From assembly GCA_030684575.1 (NCBI GenBank), contig JAUXVD010000003.1, positions 1 to 64,000 on the forward strand: a stretch of DNA of 64,000 bases, in the 5' to 3' direction. Under the pieces are notes generated by a model. The model worked only from the letters and a program-made list of their open reading frames with translations. It was not told the origin of the DNA and searched no databases. The stretch is from Nitrospirota bacterium. Its GTDB lineage: Bacteria > Nitrospirota > Nitrospiria > Nitrospirales > Nitrospiraceae. The position numbers were made by a program, and so were the translations under genes. Positions 8,508-32,687 of the stretch are shown piece by piece. Position 1 is the stretch's first letter; each line of letters opens with the position of its first letter.

Positions 8508-8541
8508 GCCTGACGACGTGAAGACGGCATCCTGATCACGC

Positions 8542-8567
8542 GCTGACCCCTCTTCGGAGGTGCCAGC
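8542..8567 (+). terminator. Hairpin after the capsid gene
   Basis: A stem with a TTCG tetraloop (CCTC-TTCG-GAGG) extended by GCTG/CAGC and two mismatches. It has no T-run, so it may act as an mRNA stabiliser or partial terminator for the heavily expressed capsid gene rather than a full stop. Confidence 0.4.
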
Positions 8568-8599
8568 GACAGGATCAATCTCGGAGATGAGGAGGCACT

Positions 8600-9043
8600 A
8601 TGGGACCGATCGGCAATCTACTCGAAGAAACGAAAATCACCAAACTCAATGACGCCACCGCCGCCGGGACGAGCGCCATTAACTCTGGCATCGTCGATAT
8701 GTCGGGCTATGACGGCGTGGTGTTTCTGACCTCGACCGGTACGGTCCTGGCAACGGGGACCGCGACCATCAAGGCCCAGCAGGGAGCCGTCTCGAATATG
8801 GCGGACGCGGCGGATCTCATCGGCACCAGCCAGGCCTTCATCGATACCGATGACAATAGATCTGTGGCGATCGACATCAAGCGCCCGAACGAACGCTACG
8901 TGCGCTGCGTGATTACACGGGCGGTCGCGAACAGCGACTGGGGCCCAATATGGGCGTTGCAGTATCGGGCCCGCAAGGTGCCGGTGGCGCAAGGACTCGA
9001 TAAATACGAATCGCACACCAACCCGATTGAGGGCACGGCCTAA
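8600..9043 (+). CDS. Head-region structural protein (possible decoration protein)
   Basis: 147 residues, with a Thr/Ala/Gly-rich beta pattern (VDMSGYDGVVFLTSTGTVLATGTATIKAQQG). Proteins of this kind occur after the capsid gene in several siphoviruses and are probably small head decoration or stabilising proteins. No catalytic motif. GAGGAGG before the ATG and the position give support; the exact function is inferred. Confidence 0.65.
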   Translation: MGPIGNLLEETKITKLNDATAAGTSAINSGIVDMSGYDGVVFLTSTGTVLATGTATIKAQQGAVSNMADAADLIGTSQAFIDTDDNRSVAIDIKRPNERYVRCVITRAVANSDWGPIWALQYRARKVPVAQGLDKYESHTNPIEGTA

Positions 9044-9045
9044 CC

Positions 9046-9252
9046 ATGGTCCAGGATTCGCTCGTCACTATCCGGTTCAGCACCTCGCGGGCCACGCTCT
9101 GCGGGGTACATCTCAGTGGTGTGGAGTATGCCGTCTCGCGGGAGTTCGCGAAGCAAGTCGTCGAAGGTGAGGGGGTCGCGGCCTACGTCAATCCAGAGCC
9201 TGAGATGCTTCCTGGCAGCGTCCAGGTGCATGTGTCGAAACGGAAACGATAG
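9046..9252 (+). CDS. Small prophage protein of the joining region
   Basis: 68 residues, two bases after the preceding stop and three before the next start, so it is in the same translational chain. It reads MVQDSLVTIRFSTSRATLCG and has no signal peptide or motif I can assign. Size and position are compatible with a small head or connector accessory protein. Confidence 0.6.
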   Translation: MVQDSLVTIRFSTSRATLCGVHLSGVEYAVSREFAKQVVEGEGVAAYVNPEPEMLPGSVQVHVSKRKR

Positions 9253-10705: not shown

Positions 10706-11134
10706 ATGGCCACGCAAGCAATTTCAGGATACGGCACCCTACTCAAGCGCGGAGACGGTGGCGCCCCGGAGACGTTCACGACGGTGGGCGAAGTCCGCTC
10801 CATCAGCGGTCCCTCCATGGAGACCGACGAGGCCGATGTCACCACGCACAGCTCGGCCGCTGCCGGCGCGTTCAAGGAATACATCTTGACCCTCATCGAC
10901 GCCGGGTCGGTGGAGTTTGAAACGAACTATGTGCCCAGCGATCCGACCCATATCGGACTGCGGCAAGACTTCCTCGCGCGCACCAAGCGCAACTGGCAGA
11001 TCGTGCTGCCTGGCGCGATTCAGACCATCAGTTTTGCGGGCTACGTGAAGTCCGCGCCGTTCGAATTTCCGACGGACGATGCGATCACGCAGAAGATCAG
11101 CATTCGCTGCACCGGTGCGCCGACGTTCAGCTAA
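10706..11134 (+). CDS. Major tail tube protein
   Basis: 142 residues starting after AAGGAGG. It has the tail-tube pattern of a short conserved entry (GYGTLLKRGDGGAPETFTTVGEV), then DEADVTTHSSAAAGAFKEYI and VPSDPTHIGLRQDF, with beta strands throughout. Many copies form the tube of the flexible tail. Its order before the G/GT chaperone and tape measure genes fits precisely. Confidence 0.85.
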   Translation: MATQAISGYGTLLKRGDGGAPETFTTVGEVRSISGPSMETDEADVTTHSSAAAGAFKEYILTLIDAGSVEFETNYVPSDPTHIGLRQDFLARTKRNWQIVLPGAIQTISFAGYVKSAPFEFPTDDAITQKISIRCTGAPTFS

Positions 11135-11176
11135 CGACGATATGTGACGACGTTCGACCGATTATAAGGAGGCTCT

Positions 11177-11554
11177 ATGGCACGCACGACGATCCCCGCT
11201 GCATCGATCATCACCCCGCTCGGGCCTTATCCCACGTTGCCGGTGTCCGCCTTGGCGCTGGACCTCGCCTGGCAAGCCGCCGATGCGTCGAACTTGAACC
11301 AGTTCGCGCTCGGGACCGGCAAATACATCGTGCTGGCCCGCAATGTTCATGCGACGACGCCCTTCACCGTCACGTTGACCAGCTCTGCCGATGCCCGGAA
11401 GCGCAGTGGCGACATCACGACCTATTCCATCGCGGCCGGCAAGCAGATCGCCTTCTTGCTCGACCAGCAAGAAGGATGGATTCAGAGCGACGGCATGTTC
11501 TATCTGACCGGCAGCGATGCCAACATTCAGTTCTGCATCATTCGACTGACCTAG
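11177..11554 (+). CDS. Probable tail structural protein, unknown family
   Basis: 125 residues after a good ribosome site (AAGGAGG). Beta-rich, with Thr/Ala/Ser (FTVTLTSSADARKRSGDITTYSI). It sits between tail tube and chaperone genes, where some phages have an extra tube or decoration protein. It lacks a signal peptide and cysteine motif. Function is not determined. Confidence 0.6.
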   Translation: MARTTIPAASIITPLGPYPTLPVSALALDLAWQAADASNLNQFALGTGKYIVLARNVHATTPFTVTLTSSADARKRSGDITTYSIAAGKQIAFLLDQQEGWIQSDGMFYLTGSDANIQFCIIRLT

Positions 11555-11568
11555 CACAGCGTCCGAGA

Positions 11569-11593
11569 TCCTGGCGCGCCGCGCGCGCCAGGA
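11569..11593 (+). other. Perfect 11-bp stem hairpin before the tail chaperone gene
   Basis: TCCTGGCGCGC and its exact complement flank a three-base loop, giving a very stable RNA hairpin 20 bases upstream of the chaperone start. There is no T-run. It could limit transcription or protect the 3' end of the tail tube message. Confidence 0.55.
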
Positions 11594-11613
11594 GCAGGGC
11601 ACGGAAAGGGACC

Positions 11614-12009
11614 ATGGAGTTTCTCTCAAAAGACGACATTCTCAACGCCGACGACATCCTGACGGAAACCGTGTCGGTGCCAGAATGGAAGGGGCACGTC
11701 ATCGTCTGCGGGCTCACGGGCGCCGCGAAGGACGCCTACGACAAGTCGATCATCGAGATCAAGGGGAACAAGCGCACGGTGAACCTGGACCATCTCCGGG
11801 CCAAGCTGTTGGTGCGCACCCTGGTCACGGCCGATCGGCAACCGATCTTCACGGAGTCCGACATCATCAAGTTAGGCACCAAGAGCGCGGCGGTGCTCGA
11901 CCGGCTCTGTGCCATTGCGCAGCGGCTGTCCGGGATGCGGGCGGAGGATGCCGACGAACTAAAAAAAACTTCCGAGACGACCCCGACCGACGCTTCCGCT
12001 TCCGTCTAG
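11614..12009 (+). CDS. Tail assembly chaperone, short form (gpG-like)
   Basis: 131 residues starting MEFLSKDDIL. In lambda-type phages gpG and its frameshifted product gpG-T bind the tape measure protein during tail assembly. Here the short form ends with ELKKTSETTPTDASASV shortly after a run of eight A that supplies the slip site. The ATG follows GGAAAGG. Size and order fit the family. Confidence 0.85.
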   Translation: MEFLSKDDILNADDILTETVSVPEWKGHVIVCGLTGAAKDAYDKSIIEIKGNKRTVNLDHLRAKLLVRTLVTADRQPIFTESDIIKLGTKSAAVLDRLCAIAQRLSGMRAEDADELKKTSETTPTDASASV

Positions 12010-12326
12010 CGCTGGCGTTGGGCTATGCCGATCCGGACCGTCTCGCACAGCAGTTGAGCGCCAGGAAGCTACGCGAGTGGCAGGCCTATGCCGAGTTGGA
12101 GCCCTTCGGCCCACCGGCAGGATTTTGGCGGGCCGGGTTGATCGCCAGCGTCGTGGCGAACGTGAACCGGACCAAGAAGAGTCAGCAGGCCTTCAGCGCC
12201 GAGGATTTTATGCCGCGCACCATGGTGACAGAGGCGGAGAAGGATGATGCGCCGGACGTGGGCGCCTCCGTGCTCCGGGCGTTTCAGGATCTCGCCACGC
12301 TGCAGCAGTCGAAGGGCCGTTCATGA
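11614..12326 (+). CDS. Tail assembly chaperone, frameshifted long form (gpGT-like)
   Basis: Read as G to codon AAA at 11965-11967, then shifting back one base to AAC TTC CGA. The extension has the typical T-domain sequence LALGYADPDRLAQQLSARKL, REWQAYAELEPFGPP and a closing DFMPRTM, giving 237 residues in total. The T part contacts the tail tube subunit in lambda. The end overlaps the tape measure ATG by four bases. Confidence 0.82.
11961..11968 (+). promoter_or_regulatory. Programmed -1 ribosomal frameshift site
   Basis: In the G frame the codons are CTA AAA AAA ACT, so a phased A-AAA-AAA slip site is present in an eight-A run. A step back of one base continues into a frame ending at 12326 that encodes the conserved T domain. 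In-frame phasing, the following domain and gene order together make this a programmed shift. Confidence 0.85.
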
Positions 12327-14764
12327 GCAAGCTCGTCCTCGAACTCATCGCCGACACGAACAATCTGATCAAGAATCTTGATCGCGCGCAGGCGTCCGTC
12401 GACAAGTTCGTCGACAGTTCCGCTACGGCCGGCCAATCGCTCGGGGGCGGCGTGAATCGTGCGCTCGATGCCTTTACGGACCTGGCCAAGGGCGGCGCGG
12501 CGGCCGCCGGGGTCTTGGCGGGTGGATTTGTCGCCGCGGCTACGGCCGCGGTGCTCATGACGACCAGCGCCGGACAGCAGATCGAAGCGATCGACCAGTT
12601 GAGCCAGAAGACCGGCATTGCGCTGCAGAGCCTCCAGCAATGGTCCGTCATCATGGCCGAAAACAGCTTCCAGGCCGAGACTCTCTCTGGAGGTATGCGC
12701 ACGCTGTCGAAACAGATGATCGAGGCGCGCAATCCGGCGAGCCAAGCCGCGACCACGTTCGACGAGCTCGGCATCTCGATCACGGCACTGGGGTCGACAG
12801 AATCGACCATCCGGGCCGTCGCCGATAAGTTCAAGGATTTGCCTGACGGAGCCGACAAAGCGCGGCTGGCGGTCACACTCTTCGGGAAAGCCGGGCTCGA
12901 CATGATTCCGATGCTGAATCGTGGCGCGGCCGCGTTCGATGCCTCGCGTGCCGCCTCTGAACGGTTCGGCGTGGTGCTGTCCACACAACAAGTCTCCGCC
13001 CTCACGGCCGTGGACGACGCCTCAGATCGTCTTGGTGTGTCGCTCCAGGGACTCAAGCTGCAACTGTCGGCCACGTTTGCGTCTTCCGTGGAGGCGGCCA
13101 TTAACGCCACCACCGAGTCGATTGCCAGAATGACCAATTCGCTGGTCACGTCGAGATCTGCGGTGAGTGACTTCTTTGAGGAATTCAAGAAGAACCATCC
13201 GCTCATCTCCTCAGCTCTGCTGGGTCCTGTTGCGGGGCGTGCGGCTCCCACGCCGCTCTTCCCCCCAGCCGTCACAGGCCCACAGCAGGATACCCACGTC
13301 GCAGACTTCGCCCTTTCCAGCGGGCAGCAGCAGGAAGCGCTCGGCCTCAAGATCCGCGATCAGCTCATCGCCAAATACAAGCTGCTGCAGAGCGAAGGCC
13401 ATGCCCAGGAGGCGCTCGGCAAGATCACGACGACCATCTTTCAGCGCGAGACCGCGGAACGCAACGCCAACTTCGCCATGATGGTCGAAGAAGAAGATCG
13501 AGTCCGGATGCTGAACTTGGAGCTCTCGAAGCCTCCGGATAGCGGCCCCTTCGTCGAGGCTATCAAACATAAAGAGGCCGCGCTCCAGAACCTCCTCACC
13601 ATCATGCCGGAACTCACGCGAGACCAAGCGATCCTGCAGACGATGGAGCAGGATGCCGCAGGCCTCGCGATCGTGCAGGCCGGCACGGAGTCCTGGTTGC
13701 ACCGGAACGACGCACTGGACATCGCCGTGCAGGATACGCAATCCCTCGACGCCGCGCAGCATGCGCTCTTCCAGAGCGAAGCGGGCTTGATTGGAGCCTC
13801 CGATGCTGCCAGGCAACAACGCTTCGCGCTGATCGACGCAGAAGCCGAACGAGAGCGAGTCCGTATTGACGAGACAATCTTCAACGAACAGCGCAAAGCG
13901 CAGGCGTTGCAGAGCTTGGACACCGATACCGACACCAAGCGCCGCCAGGCCGTGCAGGCCTTTCCCTCGTTCTTCGAATCGCAAATGCAAGCCATCGTAG
14001 CCTCCAACGCCTTCAGTATGGGCTCCATGGTCTCGACCTGGACCGGTGGCATCGCCCAGATGGCCGTTCATGGCGGCAACCTGCAGGCGGTCTGGGAGCA
14101 AACCCAGGTCGCGCTCGTGCAGGCGGCGTTGAATGCCGGGGTCCAGCAGGTGGCGCAAGCGGCACTCTCAGCCTCGGTGGAGATGGGCATTGTGTCTGCT
14201 GGCGAGGCGGCGAAGCTCGGACTCAAGACGGCGACGAATACGGCCGTGGTGGCGAGCGATGCAGCGGCGGCTGGGGCCAGTGTCGCCATCTGGACCGGTG
14301 CCTCAGCGGCCATACTCGGTGCCTATGCCTCGGTGGCGGCAGGATTTACGGCGATATCGGGCGCGCTTGTGACTGCGCTCACGGCCGTTGGCACATTCGT
14401 CATGGGTGTCTTGAGCGCGATCGCTGAAGCCTTGACCGCCACGGTGTTCGGTATTCCCTATGCCGGGGCCATCCTCGTTGGCGTGGCTGCCATCGCGGTC
14501 GCCTTAGCGGCCACCGGCAATCTTGGATTTAAGGAAGGCGGCATCGGCAATTTCGGCAGCGGGACGCCAGCGACCCTGCATGGGCAGGAAGCCATCATTC
14601 CGCTCAATGGCCGCGGCGCGGCCTTTATGCAACAGGCGTTCGGATCGGGCGGGGGCTCTTCGCAGCGCATTGAAGTGCCCGTGTATCTGAATGGGCGTGA
14701 GATTGCCCGCGCGACGGCCCGGCACATGCCGTCTGCTTGGCGCTCCGAAGGGGCCCCGGCATGA
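12323..14764 (+). CDS. Tail tape measure protein
   Basis: 813 residues, directly after the chaperone pair. The first ~60 residues and much of the middle are helical with heptads (VDKFVDSSATAGQS, NFAMMVEEEDRVRMLNLEL). Hydrophobic stretches lie near residues 50-80 and in the last quarter (AAAGASVAIWTGASAAILGAYASVAAG; GIPYAGAILVGVAAIAVAL), as expected for a protein that sets tail length and may insert in the membrane at DNA entry. The C-terminus has GSGTPATLHGQEAIIPL, common in lambda-type tape measures. Confidence 0.93.
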   Translation: MSKLVLELIADTNNLIKNLDRAQASVDKFVDSSATAGQSLGGGVNRALDAFTDLAKGGAAAAGVLAGGFVAAATAAVLMTTSAGQQIEAIDQLSQKTGIALQSLQQWSVIMAENSFQAETLSGGMRTLSKQMIEARNPASQAATTFDELGISITALGSTESTIRAVADKFKDLPDGADKARLAVTLFGKAGLDMIPMLNRGAAAFDASRAASERFGVVLSTQQVSALTAVDDASDRLGVSLQGLKLQLSATFASSVEAAINATTESIARMTNSLVTSRSAVSDFFEEFKKNHPLISSALLGPVAGRAAPTPLFPPAVTGPQQDTHVADFALSSGQQQEALGLKIRDQLIAKYKLLQSEGHAQEALGKITTTIFQRETAERNANFAMMVEEEDRVRMLNLELSKPPDSGPFVEAIKHKEAALQNLLTIMPELTRDQAILQTMEQDAAGLAIVQAGTESWLHRNDALDIAVQDTQSLDAAQHALFQSEAGLIGASDAARQQRFALIDAEAERERVRIDETIFNEQRKAQALQSLDTDTDTKRRQAVQAFPSFFESQMQAIVASNAFSMGSMVSTWTGGIAQMAVHGGNLQAVWEQTQVALVQAALNAGVQQVAQAALSASVEMGIVSAGEAAKLGLKTATNTAVVASDAAAAGASVAIWTGASAAILGAYASVAAGFTAISGALVTALTAVGTFVMGVLSAIAEALTATVFGIPYAGAILVGVAAIAVALAATGNLGFKEGGIGNFGSGTPATLHGQEAIIPLNGRGAAFMQQAFGSGGGSSQRIEVPVYLNGREIARATARHMPSAWRSEGAPA

Positions 14765-15096
14765 TCAAAGCGCGGGTGAAAGAAACCAGTACGACGACAG
14801 GGACGGGGACGCTGAATCTTGCGGGGCCCGTCGCCGGGTTCCGATCGTTCGTGAATGCGTTCGGTACCGCCCAACCCTGCTACTACGTGATCATCGATGG
14901 GACGGCCTGGGAAGTGGGGATCGGGCTGATCACGAGCGGGTCGCCGGACACCTTGGAGCGCACCACAGTACTCGATTCCAGTGCCGCAGGGGCGAAGCTC
15001 TCGCTCGGGTCTGGCGTGAAATCGGTCTTTAATGATGCCCCGGCACAGATCTATCTGGAAGCGCTCGCGACTGCGCTGCTCTTTGGAGGGAAATAA
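14761..15096 (+). CDS. Tail tip protein of a common phage family
   Basis: 111 residues from the ATG overlapping the tape measure stop. It begins MIKARVKETSTTTGTGTLNL, a motif found in many phage proteins, often repeated or fused in tail fibre genes, with the later GTAWEVGIGLIT and TVLDSS segments. Probably a beta-sandwich of the distal tail. Function at molecular level is unknown. Confidence 0.7.
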   Translation: MIKARVKETSTTTGTGTLNLAGPVAGFRSFVNAFGTAQPCYYVIIDGTAWEVGIGLITSGSPDTLERTTVLDSSAAGAKLSLGSGVKSVFNDAPAQIYLEALATALLFGGK

Positions 15097-15099
15097 ATC

Positions 15100-15567: not shown

Positions 15568-17247
15568 GTGGCCATCGCGGACGCCGCCATCGGGGAAGAG
15601 CCGGTCTTAGGGAGCGAGGTCCTGTCCTGGATTGGATTGGACTACTGGCTGCTGGTCGGCGGCCTGCGCGAAGGCGCGGCTCGCATGGACACCCTCAGCA
15701 TTGAGGAGTCCGGCGATGGGAAGTCCAGATGTCGCTGCGTGGTGATCAATCCGACGGTGCCGATCGTCGACGGAAAGACCTGTGCGGTGATCTGGCGCGG
15801 AGAAACGGTGTTCTCGGGGCTGATTCGCACCCTCACGATCGACGGCGATCAGTCCGAGGCGGTTTTCCTGTACAGCATCGAGGCGGACGGGTGGGATTCG
15901 CTGCTCGCGCGGCATACGATCACAAAAACCTACACCAACGTCATGGCTGGGCAGATCCTCCGCGATGCCATTCCGGCGAGCGGTCTGAGCCTGGACGGCG
16001 TGACGGCAGGCCTGGTGGATGATGGCATTCAGCTGTTGCTGGCAGAGGCGAACCATGTGCGCGTGGCCGACTTTATCCGGGACATCGGCGTGGCGGGCGG
16101 CGGGGTCGCCTTCATTAATCCCTATAAGCAGATCGTGTTTCGTCCGTTGTCGGTGGATGCGGCTGATGTCGTGATTACGAATGCGCGGGCCGAAACGATT
16201 CAGCATATGAGCGATTTAGATAATTATCGGAATCGGCAGATCGTGAAAGTGACCGGCACGGGCGGCGCCACGGTGACGGAAACGCGCGACGATTTGGCGC
16301 AGCAAGCCCTCCGCATCGCCGACGAGGGCGGCAGCGGAATCTATGAAGACTATCAGGAGGTGAAGCATCCCACGTCGAACGTGGTGGGCGAATTGTCCAT
16401 CATGGGGCAGACGGTGGGGTTCGTGCAGTTGCGCACCTATGCCAAGAATGCTCGGCGTGTGACCGTCACGATGCGCGAGCCCGCGCCACGGATCGGACAA
16501 TTGACGACGCTGAACCTGCCAGGATTCGGGCTGTCCGGCACCTTCCTTGCCATGCGCAAGACCTGGCGTGAGTCGTCCGGGGCTTTCCTGTTTGACGTGG
16601 AATTCTGGGAGTCGAGCTTTCAGCAGTTCGCGCTGGAATCGCTCTTGCGCATTGTGGGTGCCGGAAAAGCCGCGGTCTCGATCTCGGCCAACGTGTTTCC
16701 GAACGTGCAACTGTTCAGCACACCAGGGGCATTTACCTGGACGGTGCCGGCCGGTGTCACTACGGCGCAATTTGCGAATATCGGGGGGAGCGCAGGCGGC
16801 GGCGGCGGCCGTCGATTGTGGGGCTTCAGTGGAAGCTGCTTTGTCATTGGATTTGCGACAGGAGGCGATGGAGGGAATAGCGGCAAGGCGATCACCATTC
16901 GAGCGGTATCGCCGGGGCAAGTGTTTGATCTTGTTGTGGGAGATGCAGGGACCGCCGGCATCACCGGAGAGGTGGCCAGTATTTGTACGGGGGGTTCGAC
17001 GATCTCGGATGGTGGAGATGGTGGCCTGTCATCCGTAAAGCTCGGCGCAGTAACTGTCTGCCAGGCCGATGGCGGGACGGCCGGATTAAGCGGGGCAGGC
17101 GGGACGAATGGCGCGGATGGCGTCGCGGGCGGAGGCGTCGGAGATGCCGTCAGTGTGGGCGGTGGGAATCTCGGCGGGCAAGGCGGCAAGAGTTATGACG
17201 TCGATGGCATTGCCGGGATGGGCGGTTTGATCGAGGTACGCTGGTAA
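15568..17247 (+). CDS. Tail hub-like protein with glycine-rich C-terminal domain
   Basis: 559 residues from a GTG start after GTAGGAGG. Residues 1-370 or so look like a baseplate hub or tail tip protein (DTLSIEESGDGKSRCRC, HTITKTYTNVMAGQILRDAIPASGL, DFIRDIGVAGGGVAFINPYKQIVFRPL). The last 150 residues are Gly-rich (GGSAGGGGG, GGDGGNSGK, SGAGGTNGADG), a kind of domain seen in tips and adhesins of tail fibres and thought to bind the receptor. Fusion of hub and Gly-rich tip in one chain is notable. Confidence 0.75.
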   Translation: MAIADAAIGEEPVLGSEVLSWIGLDYWLLVGGLREGAARMDTLSIEESGDGKSRCRCVVINPTVPIVDGKTCAVIWRGETVFSGLIRTLTIDGDQSEAVFLYSIEADGWDSLLARHTITKTYTNVMAGQILRDAIPASGLSLDGVTAGLVDDGIQLLLAEANHVRVADFIRDIGVAGGGVAFINPYKQIVFRPLSVDAADVVITNARAETIQHMSDLDNYRNRQIVKVTGTGGATVTETRDDLAQQALRIADEGGSGIYEDYQEVKHPTSNVVGELSIMGQTVGFVQLRTYAKNARRVTVTMREPAPRIGQLTTLNLPGFGLSGTFLAMRKTWRESSGAFLFDVEFWESSFQQFALESLLRIVGAGKAAVSISANVFPNVQLFSTPGAFTWTVPAGVTTAQFANIGGSAGGGGGRRLWGFSGSCFVIGFATGGDGGNSGKAITIRAVSPGQVFDLVVGDAGTAGITGEVASICTGGSTISDGGDGGLSSVKLGAVTVCQADGGTAGLSGAGGTNGADGVAGGGVGDAVSVGGGNLGGQGGKSYDVDGIAGMGGLIEVRW

Positions 17248-17339: not shown

Positions 17340-17840
17340 ATGTCTGATGCGAGCGTACAGGTTCCGGCCGATAGTACGGGAAAGAAGATCGATGCCGAGC
17401 AGCTCACCGTCGGTGGGCAACCGGTGATCCGGCAGCGGGTCAATATCAGCGATCCGGTCACGGACGTCGGGAATGCCCGCGTGAAGAACCAAGTGCCCGC
17501 CGCCACCGATTATGGGCTGACGGTACGGCAGGCTCCATCAGGGATCTTAGAGGCGGTGATCAATGTCGCCACGGCGGCCGATCATGACATCGTCGCGGCC
17601 GTCGCGGGGCAGGTGATTAAGGTCTGGAAGTTGGCGCTTTGGTCGAACGGCGATCAGACCCTCACGATCAAGGACGGCGCGACGGCGCTGGCCGGCGCGA
17701 TGGATTTTGCGCAAGGCGGGAAGCTGGTCTTGCCGAAGGATGCCGACCCCTGGTTTACGCTGTCGGTGAATAGTCCGTTTCGTCTCACCATAACTCAGGC
17801 CGCGCAACTGTCCGGCCGGGTTTATTACACACAGGGGTGA
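17340..17840 (+). CDS. Probable tail tip/fibre protein
   Basis: 166 residues after a strong TAGGAGGAG ribosome site. It starts MSDASVQVPADSTGKKIDAEQLTVGGQPV, a pattern seen in small phage proteins near tail fibre genes, and ends with a beta-rich part that could be a jelly-roll (VAGQVIKVWKLALWSNGDQTLTIKDG). It has no signal peptide, in contrast with the genes that follow. Four-base overlap region with the next frame. Confidence 0.6.
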   Translation: MSDASVQVPADSTGKKIDAEQLTVGGQPVIRQRVNISDPVTDVGNARVKNQVPAATDYGLTVRQAPSGILEAVINVATAADHDIVAAVAGQVIKVWKLALWSNGDQTLTIKDGATALAGAMDFAQGGKLVLPKDADPWFTLSVNSPFRLTITQAAQLSGRVYYTQG

Positions 17841-17842
17841 TC

Positions 17843-19765
17843 ATGACACGATTGAGATTACTTGCGTGCACCTTGGTCCTGCTGCTCTCGCCGGGGCTGG
17901 CCTATAGCCAATCCCAGACCCAAAAAACCAGCTCGGTCGATGGGGCTCATACGACGACCGGGGCGAGGGCGAATACGGCCGTCACCGATTCGACGACGAC
18001 GAACAGCCTGATGAGTTTTCTCAAGGGCCTGGTCAAGATCTTTGCTGACGTCTGGGACGATCCGAACAATCGGCTGAATGTCGCGATTCAGAACACGCCG
18101 ACGGTGACGACGCAACAGTCGAACGTGACGGTCGATGCCGATACCGGCGGCGGGACACAGACGCTAACCCTGTTCGGGATCGCGCTCCCGGCGTCCGGAG
18201 GATCGGTGATTGGCGGCACCTCGACGAATCCCTTCGTCGTGAGCGGCACAATCAACGCGGCGCAGTCCGGCACCTGGACGATGCAGCCCGGCAACACGGC
18301 CAACACGACGCCCTGGCTGTTCTCGATCTCGCAGGGGGGCAATACCGCCGCCGTCAATGCGAGCAGCCAACTCTCAGTCAATTGCGCGAACTGTTCCGGA
18401 TCCGGCGTCTCCCAGCAGGACAATACCGGCTTCACGGCGGGCACGACCAACATGGTGCCGCTGGCCGGATTCGTCGGCTCAACCGCCGTCACCTCCGGCA
18501 ATGCCGGCGCGGTACAAATGACGGCGGATCGGATGCTGTTTACGAATCTCGGCAAAGTCGGGGGCACCGCGATCGCGCTCGGACAGACCAACATGTCGGC
18601 CTCGCTACCGGTGACGCTGGCCTCCAATCAATCGACGCTGCCCGTCAGCCTCGCCTCGGTCCCCTCGCATGCCGTGACGAATGTCGGCACGTTTGCCACA
18701 CAGGAAAGCGGCGCGGCGCTGACGGCGCTGCAGTTGATCGACAATCTCGTGGCCACCATCGGCTCGACGACCAGCGGGCAAAGCGGCGCGCTCAGCATGG
18801 GGGCGGTGACAACGGCCGCCCCGTCGTACACCACCGCGCAGACCAATCCCTTGTCGCTGACGCCGTCCGGCGAGCTCCGTGTGCGCATGGAGAGTACGGC
18901 GGTCGGGAGCACCTCGACCGACGACGACAATGCCCTGCCGAGTGGCACGACGGCCATGTCGGAAGTCATCGATCGGATGTATGCCTATAACAGCGACAGC
19001 GCCTCGACGGTCTATACGCGCTGGTCGCATCAGCCGCTCGATTTCGATAGCGGGGCCGGGACGGAAAATCTGTCGGTAATCGGGATCGGGCTGCCTGCCT
19101 CCGGAGGACCGGTGATCGGCGGCACCTCCAGCAATCCGTTCAATGTGGTGTTTCCGTCTGCGCAAAGTGTGACGCTGCCCGCTGATCCCTTTGGCGCAAA
19201 TGCCGATGCGGCCAGTGCCACCGGCTCGATCAGCGCCAAACTACGATTCATGGCCAGCACAGGTATTCCCATCACAGGGACCGTCACCGTGGGCTCGCAT
19301 GCCGTGACGAATGTCGGGACGTTCGCCACACAGGCCGCGCAGAGCGGCACCTGGACGATGCAGCCCGGCAATACGGCCAACACCACGCCCTGGCTGGTCT
19401 CGCTGGTGCCTCCCACCAGCGGCGGGACCACACCCTGCTACATCACGTCGGCTGCGACGACGAACGCGACGAATTGCAAGGCCTCGGCCGGACAACTCTA
19501 TGGCTATGAGCTGATCAATACGACCGGCACGCTCTACTATCTGCGGCTCTACAATCTCGCGTCGGCGCCCACCTGTTCGTCGGCGACGGGATTCATCCGG
19601 AGCATTCCGATTCCTGCGGCCACGACCGGCGCCGGTGTGACGCGCTCGCTCGCGAACGGCGAAGCCTACGGGACTGGCATCGGATTCTGCCTGACGGCCG
19701 GCGGGGCCTCCACCGATAACACCAATGCGGCCACGGGGGTCTATGTCTCGCTCAATTACAAATAG
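17843..19765 (+). CDS. Secreted repeat-containing protein of the prophage tail region
   Basis: 640 residues from the ATG at 17843 (GGGG upstream); a GTG two codons earlier is in frame. It begins with a clear Sec signal peptide (MTRLRLLACTLVLLLSPGLAYSQ, cleavage after about residue 21-22). The mature part is Thr/Ser/Gly/Asn-rich, with three repeated motifs: LPASGGxVIGGTSxNPF at about 115-131 and again near 420; QSGTWTMQPGNTANTTPWL near 141 and near 500; and SHAVTNVGTFATQ near 275 and 485. The SGTWT motif occurs in various phage tail proteins. A signal peptide on a would-be tail protein is unusual; it could instead be a secreted prophage-encoded adhesin. Confidence 0.7.
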   Translation: MTRLRLLACTLVLLLSPGLAYSQSQTQKTSSVDGAHTTTGARANTAVTDSTTTNSLMSFLKGLVKIFADVWDDPNNRLNVAIQNTPTVTTQQSNVTVDADTGGGTQTLTLFGIALPASGGSVIGGTSTNPFVVSGTINAAQSGTWTMQPGNTANTTPWLFSISQGGNTAAVNASSQLSVNCANCSGSGVSQQDNTGFTAGTTNMVPLAGFVGSTAVTSGNAGAVQMTADRMLFTNLGKVGGTAIALGQTNMSASLPVTLASNQSTLPVSLASVPSHAVTNVGTFATQESGAALTALQLIDNLVATIGSTTSGQSGALSMGAVTTAAPSYTTAQTNPLSLTPSGELRVRMESTAVGSTSTDDDNALPSGTTAMSEVIDRMYAYNSDSASTVYTRWSHQPLDFDSGAGTENLSVIGIGLPASGGPVIGGTSSNPFNVVFPSAQSVTLPADPFGANADAASATGSISAKLRFMASTGIPITGTVTVGSHAVTNVGTFATQAAQSGTWTMQPGNTANTTPWLVSLVPPTSGGTTPCYITSAATTNATNCKASAGQLYGYELINTTGTLYYLRLYNLASAPTCSSATGFIRSIPIPAATTGAGVTRSLANGEAYGTGIGFCLTAGGASTDNTNAATGVYVSLNYK

Positions 19766-20519
19766 GCCGACCTCGCAGTGTCGAGCGCTCGCGGCTGTTC
19801 TTGCACTCCTCCTGCCGGTCCACGGCTGGGCCGACATGACCGTGGTGCAATTCGGCTGCCAGTCCGGGAATATCTACACTGAGACCGTCAACAGTAATCC
19901 CAATACCGGCTACACCTACACGTACCCTTCAGCAGTCGGGTCCGGGCACCTGGTGGTGTTTGGGGGGATCAACGAGACTCGGTCCATTATCGGTGTCACC
20001 GGCACGAACATCTCATTTTCTCTCAATGGCGCGAATACCAATAATGCCACCGCCGGGTGGAATGCGAGCCAATGGAAAGGAGTCGCAACGGGATCGGTCG
20101 CGAGTTCGCAGCTGGAACTCTCAGGCGCATCGACGGTCAATAACGGAATCTGCTTTATCGAGTTGGCGAACAACGAGAGCGATCAATCAGGCTCTGTGGC
20201 CAACGGGGCCTCGGCTGATGCAACGACAACCCACATCAGTGGCAGCGTCACGCCCCCCAGCGCCGTCAATGCCGTTGTGGCCACGTCCTATGTCAGTGGC
20301 GGGACCGTCACACCAGATGCCGGGCTCACCTCGATCACGACCGGCTATGCCTCGATGTTTTTCGCGTACCGGCTACAAACCGCCGCGACGGCACAGCAAA
20401 ACGACCTGGCCACGGATACGAGTCGCTATTCCGCCATGCGGATCGGCGCGTTTGCTGGCACAGCTAGTGGAGCGACCTGTGCACGATCATTAATGCTCAT
20501 GGGGGTTGGCGGGTGTTGA
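19743..20519 (+). CDS. Secreted prophage protein of unknown function
   Basis: 258 residues from an ATG that overlaps the end of the previous gene by 23 bases, with GGGGG upstream. A signal peptide (CRALAAVLALLLPVHGWA, cleaved before DMT) follows a short basic N-terminus. The mature part is Asn/Thr/Ser/Gly-rich beta sequence (YTYTYPSAVGSGHLVVFGGINETRS), ending in a C-terminal CARSLMLMGVGGC. I do not recognise a family. Overlapping arrangement suggests it is made together with its neighbours. Confidence 0.65.
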   Translation: MSRSITNRPTSQCRALAAVLALLLPVHGWADMTVVQFGCQSGNIYTETVNSNPNTGYTYTYPSAVGSGHLVVFGGINETRSIIGVTGTNISFSLNGANTNNATAGWNASQWKGVATGSVASSQLELSGASTVNNGICFIELANNESDQSGSVANGASADATTTHISGSVTPPSAVNAVVATSYVSGGTVTPDAGLTSITTGYASMFFAYRLQTAATAQQNDLATDTSRYSAMRIGAFAGTASGATCARSLMLMGVGGC

Positions 20520-22057
20520 TTCGCCCATTCATCACGATCCTGCGCGCGCTGCTCATTGTCTGGCAGCTCGGTCTGCTCCCACTGGTGGCCTACGCCTTCG
20601 ACAACTCCCAGTACCGCGTGAATACCTACGGGTCGTCGTCGCTCTACTGCGATTTGACCCTCCCGATCGTCACGCCTTCGGGAACTGGGACGTTTGCCGA
20701 TCCGTGGAATGCCACCAACTGCCTCTCACAACCTGTCGCCGGCAATGTGGTGCGGGTGAAGGCCGGCGTCAGTCAGCCCATTCTCACGACTGACAATGAC
20801 AACATCCCCGTGTTTCAACCGGCCAACTCAGGCACGGTCGGCAATTCGATTGTCTACGTGACCGAGTGGGCCTCGGTCGGGCTCTCCAGCGTGGCCACGA
20901 ATGCGAATCGCACAGAGCTCCGTCACTCTGGCGTCGCCCCGACGATTTCGATTCCTGGTGGCGTTGGGGTGGGGGATGGCGCTGCCATACTCGGCGGTAA
21001 CGGGAAGAATTACGTGGTCTACGATGGGTTCTACATCGACGTGACGCACGCTTACCCGAAAGAAGACTCAGGTATCATCCGCGATGAAAACACCATCGGC
21101 CTACAGTTCAAGAACATCTACATCAAGGGGGCCACGCTCACGCTCGCCAGTAACGCCGTCGTGTGGCGAGCCGCCAACTCGCTCGACACGGTGCTCTACA
21201 ATATCAAGACGGTCGATTACATCAACGATGGCACGGGGTCGGCGACCCCTCAACCGAGCGGATGGGCGGACGCCTACGGCGCGAAGAACTTCAGTCTTCG
21301 GCACTTTGAAATCTCCAACTGCGGACTGGGTGTATTCCTCAAGGGGTCAGCGGATAGCGGGGCCGCGTTGAACTACGGCCTCATTGAATATGGGTACGTC
21401 GACGGGGGACTCGGGGGCATTCAGCTTCATGCCCTGCACGGGACCAATCTGACGACCGTGCGCTACGTGCGCGTGTCGAACTACGTCAGGCAAGCGTTTT
21501 TTCTGAGCAACGAAGTGGTGGAGTCGCAAAACATCCTGCTCGATCATGTGACGGCGGCCAACGGGGCGACGGACTTGGGTGGGGCGGACGGGGGTGCCCT
21601 CTACAGCGTGCGCGGGGGAGGTGCGAACGATATCGGCTTCGCCAGCAACATCACGTTCACCAACTCGATCTTCGATTCGCCCGTCACCGCCGCCAGCAAG
21701 ACCGTCAATTTCGATGAGTTGATCGTCGCGCAAGACACCTTCACCTCGAACTATAACGGCTATATGCGCGGGGCGAATGCCGCCAGTTTTGGCATGGAGT
21801 CCACGACGGACACGACGATGGCGGCCTGGCGGACTCGGATCGGGCAAGACGCGAACAGTTTGATTCTCGTCACGGAGCCCTTTGTGAACCGTGCAGGGGG
21901 AGACTTCAGGACCTCACCGGGTCACGCCGTGAAAACGGCCTCCTCAACGGGTAGTGAGATTGGGGCCTATGCGGGGAGTGAGACGGTAGGGCTGGATCTC
22001 AGCGAGGCTCCGGCGGCCAGCGCGGGCCGGTTCGGACCATTCACGCTGAGGAAATAA
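20513..22057 (+). CDS. Secreted right-handed beta-helix protein
   Basis: 514 residues from a GTG (or the TTG one codon later) overlapping the previous stop. N-terminal signal peptide (ITILRALLIVWQLGLLPLVAYA, cleavage before FDNSQ). Then SGTGTFADPWNATNCL, a common entry into pectate-lyase-like folds, and many short beta repeats (YVVYDGFYIDVT, GLQFKNIYIKGATL, VLYNIKTVDYI, FSLRHFEISNCGL, ILLDHVTAANG, NITFTNSIFD) of a parallel beta-helix. Such folds occur in polysaccharide lyases and phage tailspikes. No catalytic residues can be assigned from sequence alone. Confidence 0.72.
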   Translation: MLIRPFITILRALLIVWQLGLLPLVAYAFDNSQYRVNTYGSSSLYCDLTLPIVTPSGTGTFADPWNATNCLSQPVAGNVVRVKAGVSQPILTTDNDNIPVFQPANSGTVGNSIVYVTEWASVGLSSVATNANRTELRHSGVAPTISIPGGVGVGDGAAILGGNGKNYVVYDGFYIDVTHAYPKEDSGIIRDENTIGLQFKNIYIKGATLTLASNAVVWRAANSLDTVLYNIKTVDYINDGTGSATPQPSGWADAYGAKNFSLRHFEISNCGLGVFLKGSADSGAALNYGLIEYGYVDGGLGGIQLHALHGTNLTTVRYVRVSNYVRQAFFLSNEVVESQNILLDHVTAANGATDLGGADGGALYSVRGGGANDIGFASNITFTNSIFDSPVTAASKTVNFDELIVAQDTFTSNYNGYMRGANAASFGMESTTDTTMAAWRTRIGQDANSLILVTEPFVNRAGGDFRTSPGHAVKTASSTGSEIGAYAGSETVGLDLSEAPAASAGRFGPFTLRK

Positions 22058-22075
22058 TAATTGAGGAGGGACGCG

Positions 22076-22444
22076 ATGGTACATCAACGGCTGATGCTAG
22101 TAGGGCTTATAGGATTCGTGGTGTTGAGTGGAGTCGTCGGGTCGGCTGACGCCGCCACGGTGGAGTGGGATCGCAATAGCGAATCCGATCTGCAGGACTA
22201 TCAGGTCTGGGCCTGCTTCGCGCCGAACTGCATCGTGGTGAAATCGCCAGCGACGTTGCAGCCTGGCACCGTCGCGCAACCCGCGGCCGGCGTCAAGCCG
22301 TCCTATGTGATCAACATTACGGGCCGCGAAGGGGCGGTCGCCATCAGTGCGCGTGATCGCTCCCTGAACGAGTCAGGGCTGAGTGTGTCCGTCCCTTTCG
22401 ATCTGGTGGCCCCATCGATCCCTGTCAACCTGATTTTTCGGTGA
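22076..22444 (+). CDS. Secreted fibronectin type III-like protein
   Basis: 122 residues from the ATG behind GAGGAGG. A signal peptide (LMLVGLIGFVVLSGVVGSADA) is followed by one FN3-like domain: ATVEWDRNSESDLQDYQVWA at the start, then PSYVINITGREGAVAISARDRSLNESGLS and a PFDLVAPSIPVNL linker end. FN3 domains are known on phage surfaces as carbohydrate-binding accessories. Here the domain is exported on its own, next to the beta-helix protein. Confidence 0.7.
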   Translation: MVHQRLMLVGLIGFVVLSGVVGSADAATVEWDRNSESDLQDYQVWACFAPNCIVVKSPATLQPGTVAQPAAGVKPSYVINITGREGAVAISARDRSLNESGLSVSVPFDLVAPSIPVNLIFR

Positions 22445-22519
22445 GCCGTATGGATCTGATGCGGTGCCTGCAGTCGATCAAAGCGTTGTTGCAATAGCGT
22501 CGAGAGGAAGGGAGTCTCC

Positions 22520-22804
22520 ATGGTTGCAGTACAAGTGTGGTGTCTCGTGCCGCTGCTGCTGGTTGCCGCGTGCGGACCGGCGATGGCGGAAGATAGTGGG
22601 CCGTCGTGCCAGGAGCAGCTCCTAGTGAAGCTCACGCACGATCAATTGGTCGTGCAGAAACGGGCCGAAGTCGAAGACCAGCTCGCGCTCGTGGCCGCGC
22701 AGGCTCAGGTGCTCGAACGTAAAGTGCAACTGCTGACGAAAGAGAATGCCGACCTGAGGGTCAAGCTGGAGAAAACGGCTGGGCCTGAGAAGTCGAAGGA
22801 GTAG
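22520..22804 (+). CDS. Exported coiled-coil protein, possible lipoprotein
   Basis: 94 residues with a hydrophobic start MVAVQVWCLVPLLLVAACGPAMAEDS. Both a lipobox (VAAC) and a signal peptidase I site (AMA before EDS) are possible. The mature part is a charged coiled coil (RAEVEDQLALVAAQAQVLERKVQLLTKENADLRVKLEK). It could be an outer-membrane-anchored spanin-like protein or a partner of the preceding exported proteins; the position between fibre and lysis genes allows either. Confidence 0.6.
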   Translation: MVAVQVWCLVPLLLVAACGPAMAEDSGPSCQEQLLVKLTHDQLVVQKRAEVEDQLALVAAQAQVLERKVQLLTKENADLRVKLEKTAGPEKSKE

Positions 22805-23264: not shown

Positions 23265-23783
23265 ATGAATCAACATCTCGAACGCCTGGACGGCCTCGCG
23301 CCCTTTCTGGGCCCAGTCGTCCTTGAGCTGATCAACCGCTGCGAGCGGGATCTCAAAAGAAAGCTCCTGGTGGTGCGCGGCTGGTCGTCCTACGCGGAGC
23401 AGCTGCTGAAATATCAGCAGGGCCGCACGCTCGATCGGGCGACGGGCCAATGGGACGTCACGGCGCCGACGCTGGTGGTGACGGATGCGCCGCCCGGCCT
23501 GAGCGCCCACAACGTGGTGGTGCAGGGCACGATGGCGAAGGCGGCTGTGGGGGTCGATCTGATTCCGTTGCTGCCTGATGGGACGCCGGACTGGAACGTC
23601 GGGATGGCGTTCTGGGACCGACTCTATCCCATTGCCTGGAAGTGTGGGCTGGATCCGCTCGGGGATATCGTCGGGGCCTACCTCAAGGGCGATCTGGGGC
23701 ATCTCGAAGAGCCCGCGTGGCCACTCAAATTGTCGGGCCTTGGGCTGATGCGGCCGACGATCGGCGATCCGGTCGGCGTGTGA
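23265..23783 (+). CDS. Endolysin, M15-type peptidase
   Basis: 172 residues. The GLSAHN...VGVDL segment is the SxHxxGxAxD-like zinc site of D-Ala-D-Ala carboxypeptidase/L-Ala-D-Glu endopeptidase (M15) enzymes, with the later GDLGHLE giving the third ligand. Cleaves peptidoglycan cross-links or stems at lysis. GTAGGAGG is upstream. The lack of a signal peptide means that a holin is needed for release. The end overlaps the next GTG. Confidence 0.85.
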   Translation: MNQHLERLDGLAPFLGPVVLELINRCERDLKRKLLVVRGWSSYAEQLLKYQQGRTLDRATGQWDVTAPTLVVTDAPPGLSAHNVVVQGTMAKAAVGVDLIPLLPDGTPDWNVGMAFWDRLYPIAWKCGLDPLGDIVGAYLKGDLGHLEEPAWPLKLSGLGLMRPTIGDPVGV

Positions 23784-24276: not shown

Positions 24277-24837
24277 ATGGGAACGATTCTAGGGTTTCTG
24301 CACAATCTGTTCGGCGGATCTAGTCCGATCACGGGCTATCTGGGAAGTCTCGGGATTCTCAGTAGCGGGGCCGATCTGCTTCGCGAGGCCGTGGAGACCA
24401 ATGGCCTGCCGGCGAATCGGGCCGAATGGCTGATTCTGCTGCTCTCGATCGGCGTCCGCATGGCGAAAGACGCCAACCGTTCGAACGCGGTCAATCCTGT
24501 GGCTGTCGCGCACACCGTGCAGGCTCTGCTGCTGCCGATCCTTCTCCTCGGCCTGGTTGGATGTAGCGGTACGCAACTCCAACAAACCCAGGCGGTACTC
24601 GTCAAGCTGAAAGCCGATGCGCAGACCGTCGCGATCGCCGGTTGTGCAAATGCGCCGCTGGCCGAGCTGCTCCTCTCGACGGCGTTGGAGCTGTTGCCGC
24701 CGGGCACGACGATTGACCAGATCCATGCGGGGATGACGCTGGCCCAGCCGCAGATCGCGGCGTTCTGTGCCAGGCTGCAACAACTCCACGCGCCAGCGGT
24801 ACCGGTTGTGCCGGCAGGGACGCCGGGCGTCTCATGA
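24277..24837 (+). CDS. Membrane protein: phage SPITGYLG family fused to a lipoprotein-like tail
   Basis: 186 residues. The first ~70 (ILGFLHNLFGGSSPITGYLG...RMAKDANRSN) resemble a short phage protein common in lysis regions. Then comes a hydrophobic stretch ending in a lipobox (LLPILLLGLVGC, Cys96), and a soluble C-terminal part with Cys residues. An internal Met62 could start a separate lipoprotein, but there is no clear ribosome site. I would take it as either a fusion or two overlapping products. Confidence 0.55.
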   Translation: MGTILGFLHNLFGGSSPITGYLGSLGILSSGADLLREAVETNGLPANRAEWLILLLSIGVRMAKDANRSNAVNPVAVAHTVQALLLPILLLGLVGCSGTQLQQTQAVLVKLKADAQTVAIAGCANAPLAELLLSTALELLPPGTTIDQIHAGMTLAQPQIAAFCARLQQLHAPAVPVVPAGTPGVS

Positions 24838-25100
24838 TTGCGATTCTGATTTCCTTTGGCCTCTCGTGGCTCTCGAAGCTCGTGCTTCGAGAGCTGGAGA
24901 AGCATCAGAAAGGGACCGATGCCGAAACAATCTTTCGTCTCACGGCGACGAATCAGCAACTACGGGGGGCTGTCCATGCGTGGAAATACAAGGCCGGGGC
25001 TGCTCGCGATCCTGGTACTGGGGACCTTCGGGTGCGCGACGGCGCCGCCACCGTCCCACTACCAGGTGGAGATACCGCTCCTCCAGGCCCGTCCCACTGA
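24834..25100 (+). CDS. Inner-membrane spanin-like protein
   Basis: 88 residues starting four bases within the end of the previous gene. A hydrophobic N-terminus (MIAILISFGLSWLSKLVL) is followed by a charged helix (RELEKHQKGTDAETIFRLTATNQQLRG) and a Gly/Pro-rich tail. A second gene in another frame (24976-25248) overlaps it, coding for a lipoprotein: the Rz/Rz1 arrangement. The C-terminal part beyond residue 55 may be mostly dictated by the overlap. Confidence 0.55.
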   Translation: MIAILISFGLSWLSKLVLRELEKHQKGTDAETIFRLTATNQQLRGAVHAWKYKAGAARDPGTGDLRVRDGAATVPLPGGDTAPPGPSH

Positions 25101-25248
25101 CTATCAGGCGGGCGAGGGGATCTGGTACCGGTGCTATCGGCGCGAGGATGCCATCGCGATCGTGACGGAGTTCAAGGCGGCCTGCCTCGCGCTGGGAGGC
25201 TCGCCGGAGCAATGCCAAGCCATCCTGCCGCCGGGAGATCCGCTGTGA
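24976..25248 (+). CDS. Outer-membrane spanin-like lipoprotein, overlapping the inner one
   Basis: 90 residues in a different frame, with GGGGGG upstream of the ATG. MRGNTRPGLLAILVLGTFGC gives a basic start, hydrophobic core and a lipobox-like TFGC, then ATAPPPSHY. Outer spanins are Pro-rich lipoproteins encoded inside or out of phase with the inner spanin, which is what is seen. At 70 mature residues with three Cys it is larger than lambda Rz1. Role in outer membrane disruption is inferred. Confidence 0.55.
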   Translation: MRGNTRPGLLAILVLGTFGCATAPPPSHYQVEIPLLQARPTDYQAGEGIWYRCYRREDAIAIVTEFKAACLALGGSPEQCQAILPPGDPL

Positions 25249-31501: not shown

Positions 31502-32686
31502 ATGAGAATCAGATGGACAACGCTGACCGGGACCTCTGTGTTTGCGCTGTGTCTGTTCGTCACGGCCTGTGGAGACCGCGGAAATGAAGAGCCGGCTCAG
31601 CCGCCGAAAGCGAGCACACAGTCAAGGGTGCCCCGCACCAGTACCATTCAGGCTCCGGCATCCGTGCGGAATCGACTCCGTACCGACAGGGTCGCAGCAC
31701 ATGTGGTTCCAGAAGTGGTGACGGCTCCTGGCGAAGTCGCGCTCGATCTGAAGCAGGTCGCCAAGATTGCGTCACGGATTGAAGGGCAAGTCCAATCCAT
31801 CCATGTCCAGTTGGGTGATCGTGTCCGTCGCGACCAGCCATTGTTGGCGATTGAGAGTCTGCGCTTGGACGAGTTGGTGCAGGAATACCTTGTGACGAAG
31901 GCCCAGGCGGATGTGGCCGAGAGTGGGTACCGGCGGACGAATAAGTTATGGGCCGAGCGGATCGTGACAGAGCGTCGACTGGTCGAAGAACGGGGCCGTA
32001 ACCTTGAAGCACAAGCTCGCCATCAGCATGTCCGTGAAAAGCTGTTGAATATGGGTATGACGACAGGGGAGCTACGCGAGTTGGAGCATGGAAGCCACCA
32101 GGAGGGCCATCGCTATACCCTCACCTCGCCGATCGCTGGGACGGTGGTCGCGCAAAATGTCGTGCGAGGGCAGGGCGTCGCTCCCGGCAATGAATTGTTT
32201 GAGGTTGTCGACACGAGCCGGGTCTGGGTCTTTGCAAGTTTGCCGATCGAACAAGCCAGAAAGTTCAAGGAAGGCGATGTGGGCACGATTCTGCCAAAGG
32301 GCGGTGAACCGGTTACGGCTCCGCTCACCTATCTTGCGCCGATTGCGGATGAGACTACGCGCACAATACGGGTTCGTTTTGAAGTCACGAATGAACAACA
32401 GAGGCTGAAGCCACGAGAATATGTGGACGTTCAACTGGCCGTCGCGAGTCCGCCGACCTTAGCGGTCCCCGTCTCTGCCCTGACGATGGTAGACAACGTG
32501 CGTGGAGTCTTCGTGCAACGGGAGAACGGCTATACGTTCGTCCCGATCGAAGGCGGCCGTGAAGGCGGGGGTTGGGTGGAAGTGAAGAAAGGACTGAGCG
32601 AGGGCGAGGTTGTGGTGATCGATGGCGTTTTCGATTTGAAGAACGTGCTGCTCAAAGAGCATATCGAGTCCGGCGAGGAAGGGTAA
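31502..32686 (+). CDS. czcB: RND periplasmic adaptor (CzcB family)
   Basis: 394 residues after AAGGAGG. It starts as a lipoprotein (FALCLFVTACGDRG, Cys near 22). Adaptor parts: PGEVALDLKQVAKIASRIEGQVQSIHVQLGDRV (biotinyl-lipoyl-like), helical hairpin around 120-190, TLTSPIAGTVVAQNVVRGQGV and beta-barrel IADETTRTIRVRFEVTNEQQ. The adaptor couples the inner pump to the outer channel. Confidence 0.92.
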   Translation: MRIRWTTLTGTSVFALCLFVTACGDRGNEEPAQPPKASTQSRVPRTSTIQAPASVRNRLRTDRVAAHVVPEVVTAPGEVALDLKQVAKIASRIEGQVQSIHVQLGDRVRRDQPLLAIESLRLDELVQEYLVTKAQADVAESGYRRTNKLWAERIVTERRLVEERGRNLEAQARHQHVREKLLNMGMTTGELRELEHGSHQEGHRYTLTSPIAGTVVAQNVVRGQGVAPGNELFEVVDTSRVWVFASLPIEQARKFKEGDVGTILPKGGEPVTAPLTYLAPIADETTRTIRVRFEVTNEQQRLKPREYVDVQLAVASPPTLAVPVSALTMVDNVRGVFVQRENGYTFVPIEGGREGGGWVEVKKGLSEGEVVVIDGVFDLKNVLLKEHIESGEEG

Positions 32687-32687
32687 G

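Follow-up and report, generated by a model that had tools for sequence, protein, structure and literature searches.

Predicted Export of a Fibre-Type Gene Cassette in a Nitrospiraceae Prophage, with Related Cassettes in Other Tailed Phages

Five consecutive genes in a Nitrospiraceae prophage (positions 17843-22804, + strand) are predicted to encode Sec-exported proteins, and cassettes of two to six signal-peptide genes recur in a second Nitrospiraceae siphophage, in podophages and in a cultured Synechococcus phage. The five genes are probably, though far from certainly, an exported and oxidatively folded version of a phage fibre or adhesin accessory module, which would lie in the late tail operon, be co-expressed with it and act extracytoplasmically. 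We read them in this way because all five carry predicted signals, diverged relatives keep both the signal and the paired cysteines, signal genes co-occur, and the domain content is typical of tail fibres, tailspikes and glycan-active proteins. In the textbook view, tail parts assemble in the cytoplasm. The premise of the initial annotation, that exported tail parts would be unexpected, is sound, and relatives do have tail-collar fibres that carry signals.

The prophage locus and its five signal-bearing genes

The window, by which we mean the whole 64,000-nucleotide stretch analysed, starts within a siphophage-type prophage in which PHROGs matches identify terminase small and large subunits, portal, head protease, major head protein, major tail protein and tape measure. 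The tape measure gene (12323..14764, +; phrog_8462, 6.6e-25) marks the siphophage tail module. A tail hub with a glycine-rich C-terminus (15568..17247, +; phrog_4474, with PF21722 below cutoff) has a homologue beside a tape measure in a Nitrospiraceae prophage and is a candidate receptor-binding part of the virion. Between the hub and the cassette lies a signal-less, Cys-free beta protein of 166 aa (17340..17840, +), which by eye resembles the jelly-roll heads described below and could be their cytoplasmic relative. The five genes follow, and then an endolysin-like gene (23265..23783, +; phrog_2649, E = 3.5e-4) at which the lysis module starts. That region holds two lipobox-type genes (24460-24837 and 24976-25248), the second of which overlaps 24834-25100 out of frame in an Rz/Rz1 spanin-like arrangement. 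Flanking genes had been described as free of signals, which is incorrect on the lysis side, where the lipobox proteins lie; on the tail side the hub and the 166-aa protein both score -5.6.

All five open reading frames were recovered at the coordinates first assigned to them, as were the overlaps (19765/19743 and 20519/20513) and the gaps of 18 and 75 bases upstream of 22076 and 22520, with ribosome sites of AGGAGG and AGGA type. We scored signal peptides with a home-made measure, distinct from SignalP, that combines cleavage-site preferences, hydrophobic core and N-terminal charge. In gene order the five scores on this measure were 10.2, 9.8, 8.5, 10.9 and 9.0, in agreement with the earlier claim of five consecutive Sec signals. 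All other phage genes in the table scored 4.0 or less, and among shuffled N-termini (n = 706) the 95% and 99% levels were 4.5 and 7.0. The known exported tail-region protein Lom of lambda scored 10.8. Around signal-less family members, about 3% of genes (8/247) passed the threshold. The chance of five random positions among 28 genes being consecutive is about 2e-4. By the same home-made score, each protein has N-region charge, an h-region and an AxA-type cleavage site, the predicted sites being AYS/QS, GWA/DM, AYA/FD, ADA/AT and AMA/ED (slash, cut). Sec export of the five proteins is thus supported, at the level of prediction.

The first gene (17843..19765, +) encodes a 640-aa repeat-stalk protein with a predicted cut after AYS (22) and 6 Cys in its mature part. 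It had been called a repeat protein, which captures the stalk and misses the jelly-roll head (CTD-A) that follows the QSGTWTMQPGNTANTTPWL linker repeats at the C-terminus and is found in other phages. The linker QSGTWTMQPGNTANTTPWL is nearly invariant in otherwise diverged repeat proteins, occurring twice here and also in contigs L006 and L008. AlphaFold2 modelled the head as all-beta (pLDDT 84.8), and phage proteins were matched in BFVD; against PDB folds, jelly-roll-like matches were weak, with 0 below 1e-3. A relation to phage fibre-type proteins in sequence or fold was found for this head, through its phage homologues and BFVD, and for cassette relatives, through fibre and tailspike PHROGs.

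The second gene (19743..20519, +; 258 aa, predicted cut after GWA (30), 4 mature Cys) encodes a beta protein ending in ...SLMLMGVGGC. It aligns weakly to genes in L002 and L006, with the terminal GVG invariant. No homologue was found among annotated phages, and its structure model (pLDDT 39.6) was too poor for use.

The third product (20513..22057, +; 514 aa, predicted cut after AYA (28), 3 mature Cys) is of parallel beta-helix type. It shares 44-45% identity with exported proteins encoded on the chromosomes of two genomes of the same genus, which suggests that it was taken from the host. Those chromosomal genes adjoin an Ig/FN3 protein gene and genes that, read by eye, belong to nucleotide-sugar or polysaccharide metabolism. 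No homologue was found in viral contigs. Searches for a polysaccharide lyase or GH28 assignment returned Pfam DUF5123 alone, below cutoff (E = 0.025), and PDB sequence searches with this beta-helix, the 17843 head and the 22076 FN3 domain gave 0 matches.

The fourth gene (22076..22444, +; 122 aa, predicted cut after ADA (26)) encodes a single FN3-type domain with a Cys pair, C47/C52. Four homologues in viral contigs are 56-62% identical, and all have a signal peptide and the same two Cys; their signal peptides are unrelated in sequence. Two further homologues lie in prophage-like contigs of other Nitrospiraceae, and none was found among annotated phages. The last product (22520..22804, +; 94 aa) is a small coiled coil for which no family match rose above chance. 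Its signal class, SPase I or lipoprotein, is ambiguous because a possible lipobox, VAAC/G, precedes the SPase I site AMA/ED; the automatic lipobox rule did not accept it.

Scanning 14.7-25.8 kb for sigma-70 consensus sites revealed nothing promoter-like, and the frequency of terminator-like sites did not exceed that in shuffled sequence. The first three cassette genes overlap, and 17843 begins directly after 17340-17840. From this packing and the lack of a promoter-like site we infer that the cassette would be expressed late, together with the tail genes. The suggestion that the lysogen displays these as surface proteins gains no support here, given that the scan found no such site between tail genes and cassette, the packed and overlapping arrangement with the late operon, and the similar cassettes in podophages, which may not be temperate.

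Signal-bearing and signal-less forms of the same families

Phages often carry homologues of the C-terminal 17843 head that have no signal: Caulobacter S2B, KSC and Cr30, Synechococcus S-SRP01, MW202601 and Microcystis Mwe-JY08. When the heads are aligned, Cys at APTC and GIGFC are common to the signal-bearing members and absent from the signal-less ones. We scanned for CTD-A with peptide patterns that do not demand Cys and counted non-redundant full-length members. At least two domain Cys were present in 13/13 signal-bearing and 0/11 signal-less members (Fisher 4e-7), and the mature Cys total was even in 13/13 of the former; such family counts share ancestry, which binomial p-values ignore, and the CTD-A tree needs about four signal switches, with a single origin compatible. 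Within 2.5 kb, signals were found on 23/61 neighbours of signal-bearing members versus 0/50 neighbours of signal-less ones. Whole modules therefore seem to switch compartment, and chance co-occurrence of signal genes was rejected on the same counts.

In the CTD-C family the Cys total was even in 47/47 signal-bearing full-length members (range 2-16), one of the two scan patterns containing Cys and so enriching for Cys-bearing members, with parity unaffected. At the CTD-C loci, signal-bearing neighbours had 64 even and 8 odd counts versus 230 and 174 for the genes there that have no signal. In MW202554.1 (L023), the two Cys of one pair have been lost jointly. Even counts imply disulphide pairing and hence an oxidising compartment. 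Export from the cytoplasm, as first proposed, thereby gains support from signals kept in diverged homologues and from paired, even Cys that signal-less homologues lack. This signature of periplasmic folding holds at family level. In the window the mature counts are 6, 4 and 2 for the repeat-stalk, beta and FN3 proteins; the odd counts of the 20513 beta-helix (3) and the 22520 coiled coil (1) are a counterpoint to our reading.

Most CTD-B members are signal-less, with one clear exception (L029/L002) that has four domain Cys. Four apparent signals in the signal-poor CTD-B loci L051, L059, L062 and L069 were set aside, since they are probably false positives that arose because many starts were tested. 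The diversity of alignment A3 made it unsuitable as a scan seed.

Signal-less members of the second-gene family start with MAIAFVQS or similar, matching the mature start A/AIALVQS of the exported form; judging from this match, the signal is an addition to an existing N-terminus. The gene after the repeat protein ends in the tag [LM][LM]GVG in signal-bearing and signal-less forms (positions 20499-20519 of the window; L002, L006, L023, L077, L078, L080, L113 and others). Since both forms have the tag, its partner probably lies in the module itself. A further C-terminal tag, KGLGLF or KGIGLF, ends proteins of L023, L100 and L243.

Related cassettes in other phages

Terminases, portals and major head proteins adjoin the cassette loci, which we therefore take to be phage. 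In L243, a second Nitrospiraceae siphophage whose tape measure and hub are related to those of the window, a run of signal genes lies at the same position. Four capsid-similar sister prophages (G318, G042, G365 and G119) were uninformative, as they end or are degraded before the cassette position. The complete Nitrospiraceae genome G042 contains two degraded remnants of a related prophage (L227 and L228), in which the terminase small subunit gene directly adjoins capsid genes.

Podophage-type contig L002 has four consecutive signal genes between capsid and tail-tube genes, and in L006, L008 and L009, also podophage-type, signal-gene cassettes lie near portal and scaffold. By eye, an O-antigen-ligase-like membrane protein (8116-9237) sits between portal and exported cassette in L009. 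Inside the phage structural module of L008 is a 1017-aa exported protein (12045-15098) with the look of a GH74/sortilin-type beta-propeller. The complete podophage-type genome MW202554.1 has signal genes for repeat, 195-aa, LamG and GH28-type proteins downstream of its portal. The deposited start of its GH28-type gene (10810-12408, 'endopygalactorunase') is 13 codons late and so removes the signal, and an earlier ATG restores a start that resembles a signal peptide (score 6.4). Signal-bearing genes also occur in two MAGs, one from Acidobacteriaceae and one from Nitrospiraceae, in the latter on a prophage-like contig. In the cultured Synechococcus phage Yong-M4-211 (OM868079.1) two such genes, at 32411-34771 and 34782-35198 of the record, lie side by side. 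In MW202554.1 and the Nitrospiraceae prophage L168, signal-bearing tail-collar fibres adjoin tail hub proteins. Several phages have the FN3 gene of 22076 type but lack the other cassette genes.

Pfam assigned exported cassette members elsewhere to beta-helix, pectate-lyase-like, GH28, Laminin_G_3 and Peptidase_S74 families, and PHROGs to tail spike and fibre families. The predicted products of the cassettes are of fibre type and comprise jelly-roll heads on repeat stalks, LamG, FN3, beta-helix/GH28, S74-chaperone and even tail-collar fibres.

Possible roles and relation to known systems

We favour a role as envelope- or glycan-acting adhesins and depolymerases that would be made late and released at lysis. 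The proteins would be translated alongside tail genes during late infection or induction, pass through Sec and be cleaved by signal peptidase I, with disulphides formed in the periplasm by DsbA-type oxidation. Outside the cytoplasm they may work as adhesins, or as glycan-binding or glycan-cutting proteins, on the envelope or on extracellular polysaccharide. They might stay periplasmic until lysis or exit via a host type II-like system, and would be released with progeny. The pre-lysis envelope system mentioned in the initial annotation is possible.

The strongest rival, in view of the signal-bearing tail-collar fibres that lie beside tail hubs in MW202554.1 and L168, is that the products are virion fibres matured in the periplasm: fibre-less particles would assemble in the cytoplasm and gain oxidised fibres once lysis opens the inner membrane. 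We treat this as a tentative possibility, although the signal-bearing collar fibres fit it at least as well as they fit adhesins and depolymerases. It would also account for cassettes inside structural modules (portal-scaffold, capsid-tail tube), for heads and a C-terminal GVG tag shared with signal-less homologues, and for S74 chaperone and tailspike or fibre families on exported proteins. However, we know of no tailed phage that assembles its fibres via the periplasm, the window retains a signal-less glycine-rich hub and a signal-less fibre-like gene, and the 20513 beta-helix looks host-derived. An equally tentative, wider version has a widespread group of tailed phages making part of their virion fibres in the host periplasm, from modules that gained Sec signals and disulphides as a unit.

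That beta-helix, being related to host surface-type proteins, counts in favour of cargo for lysogenic conversion or superinfection exclusion, i.e., exported surface proteins that alter the lysogen envelope or block receptors. Lambda Lom, exported and similarly placed between J and side fibre genes, is the precedent for such a moron, and the FN3 gene that occurs alone looks mobile in the same way. We nonetheless consider cargo of this kind unlikely. The case is weakened by the absence of independent expression signals: the sigma-70 consensus scan found no promoter of its own, and the overlapping genes are linked to the late tail genes. Podophage genomes, which may not be those of temperate phages, carry similar cassettes as well. 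It is very improbable that the signals are fortuitous hydrophobic N-termini on ordinary tail parts that stay cytoplasmic. The predictor is home-made and has its background rate around signal-less members, but five hits in a row, cleavage motifs, signals kept despite divergent sequence and the association of signals with paired Cys all argue against an accident.

The wider picture is of fibre-type modules in two forms, cytoplasmic and Cys-poor or, by prediction, exported and of disulphide type, with neighbouring genes tending to switch together. This raises the question of whether the periplasm is a delivery route for fibres, adhesins or depolymerases in some tailed phages, and what such a route would serve. 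Phage genes named tail fibre, polygalacturonase or glycoprotein repeat may encode exported proteins, and caution is warranted in their annotation. Phage Yong-M4-211, being cultured and having such a pair, may allow testing.

Single exported phage genes are already known. In the open-access literature, with subscription journals and preprints outside our scope, we found no description of such cassettes, and fibre-type modules that recur in exported form appear not to have been described before. Lambda Lom is likewise a prophage-encoded exported protein between tail-tip and side-fibre genes; it is a single outer-membrane barrel gene, whereas the present cassettes are packed sets of three to six fibre-like, often disulphide-type proteins that also have signal-less counterparts. 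The domain families (collar domain, S74 chaperone, pectate-lyase-like, GH28, LamG) and the structural-module position are shared with phage tail fibres and tailspikes, but in their known form these families are virion parts that stay in the cytoplasm and have no Sec signal, whereas cassette members have signals and usually even Cys. The 'glycoprotein repeat' jelly-roll proteins of the Caulobacter, Synechococcus and Microcystis phages and MW202601 have homologous C-terminal heads and, in the CTD-A set, no signal, Cys pair or signal-bearing neighbours. Sec-exported or SAR endolysins and spanins, also late products of phages, likewise make use of Sec and of disulphides in the periplasm (PMC6116005), but they belong to lysis, whereas the cassette encodes fibre- or adhesin-type proteins outside the lysis module. 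A single-gene parallel is the signal-bearing esterase gp40 of Xanthomonas phage PBR31 (PMC10975493).
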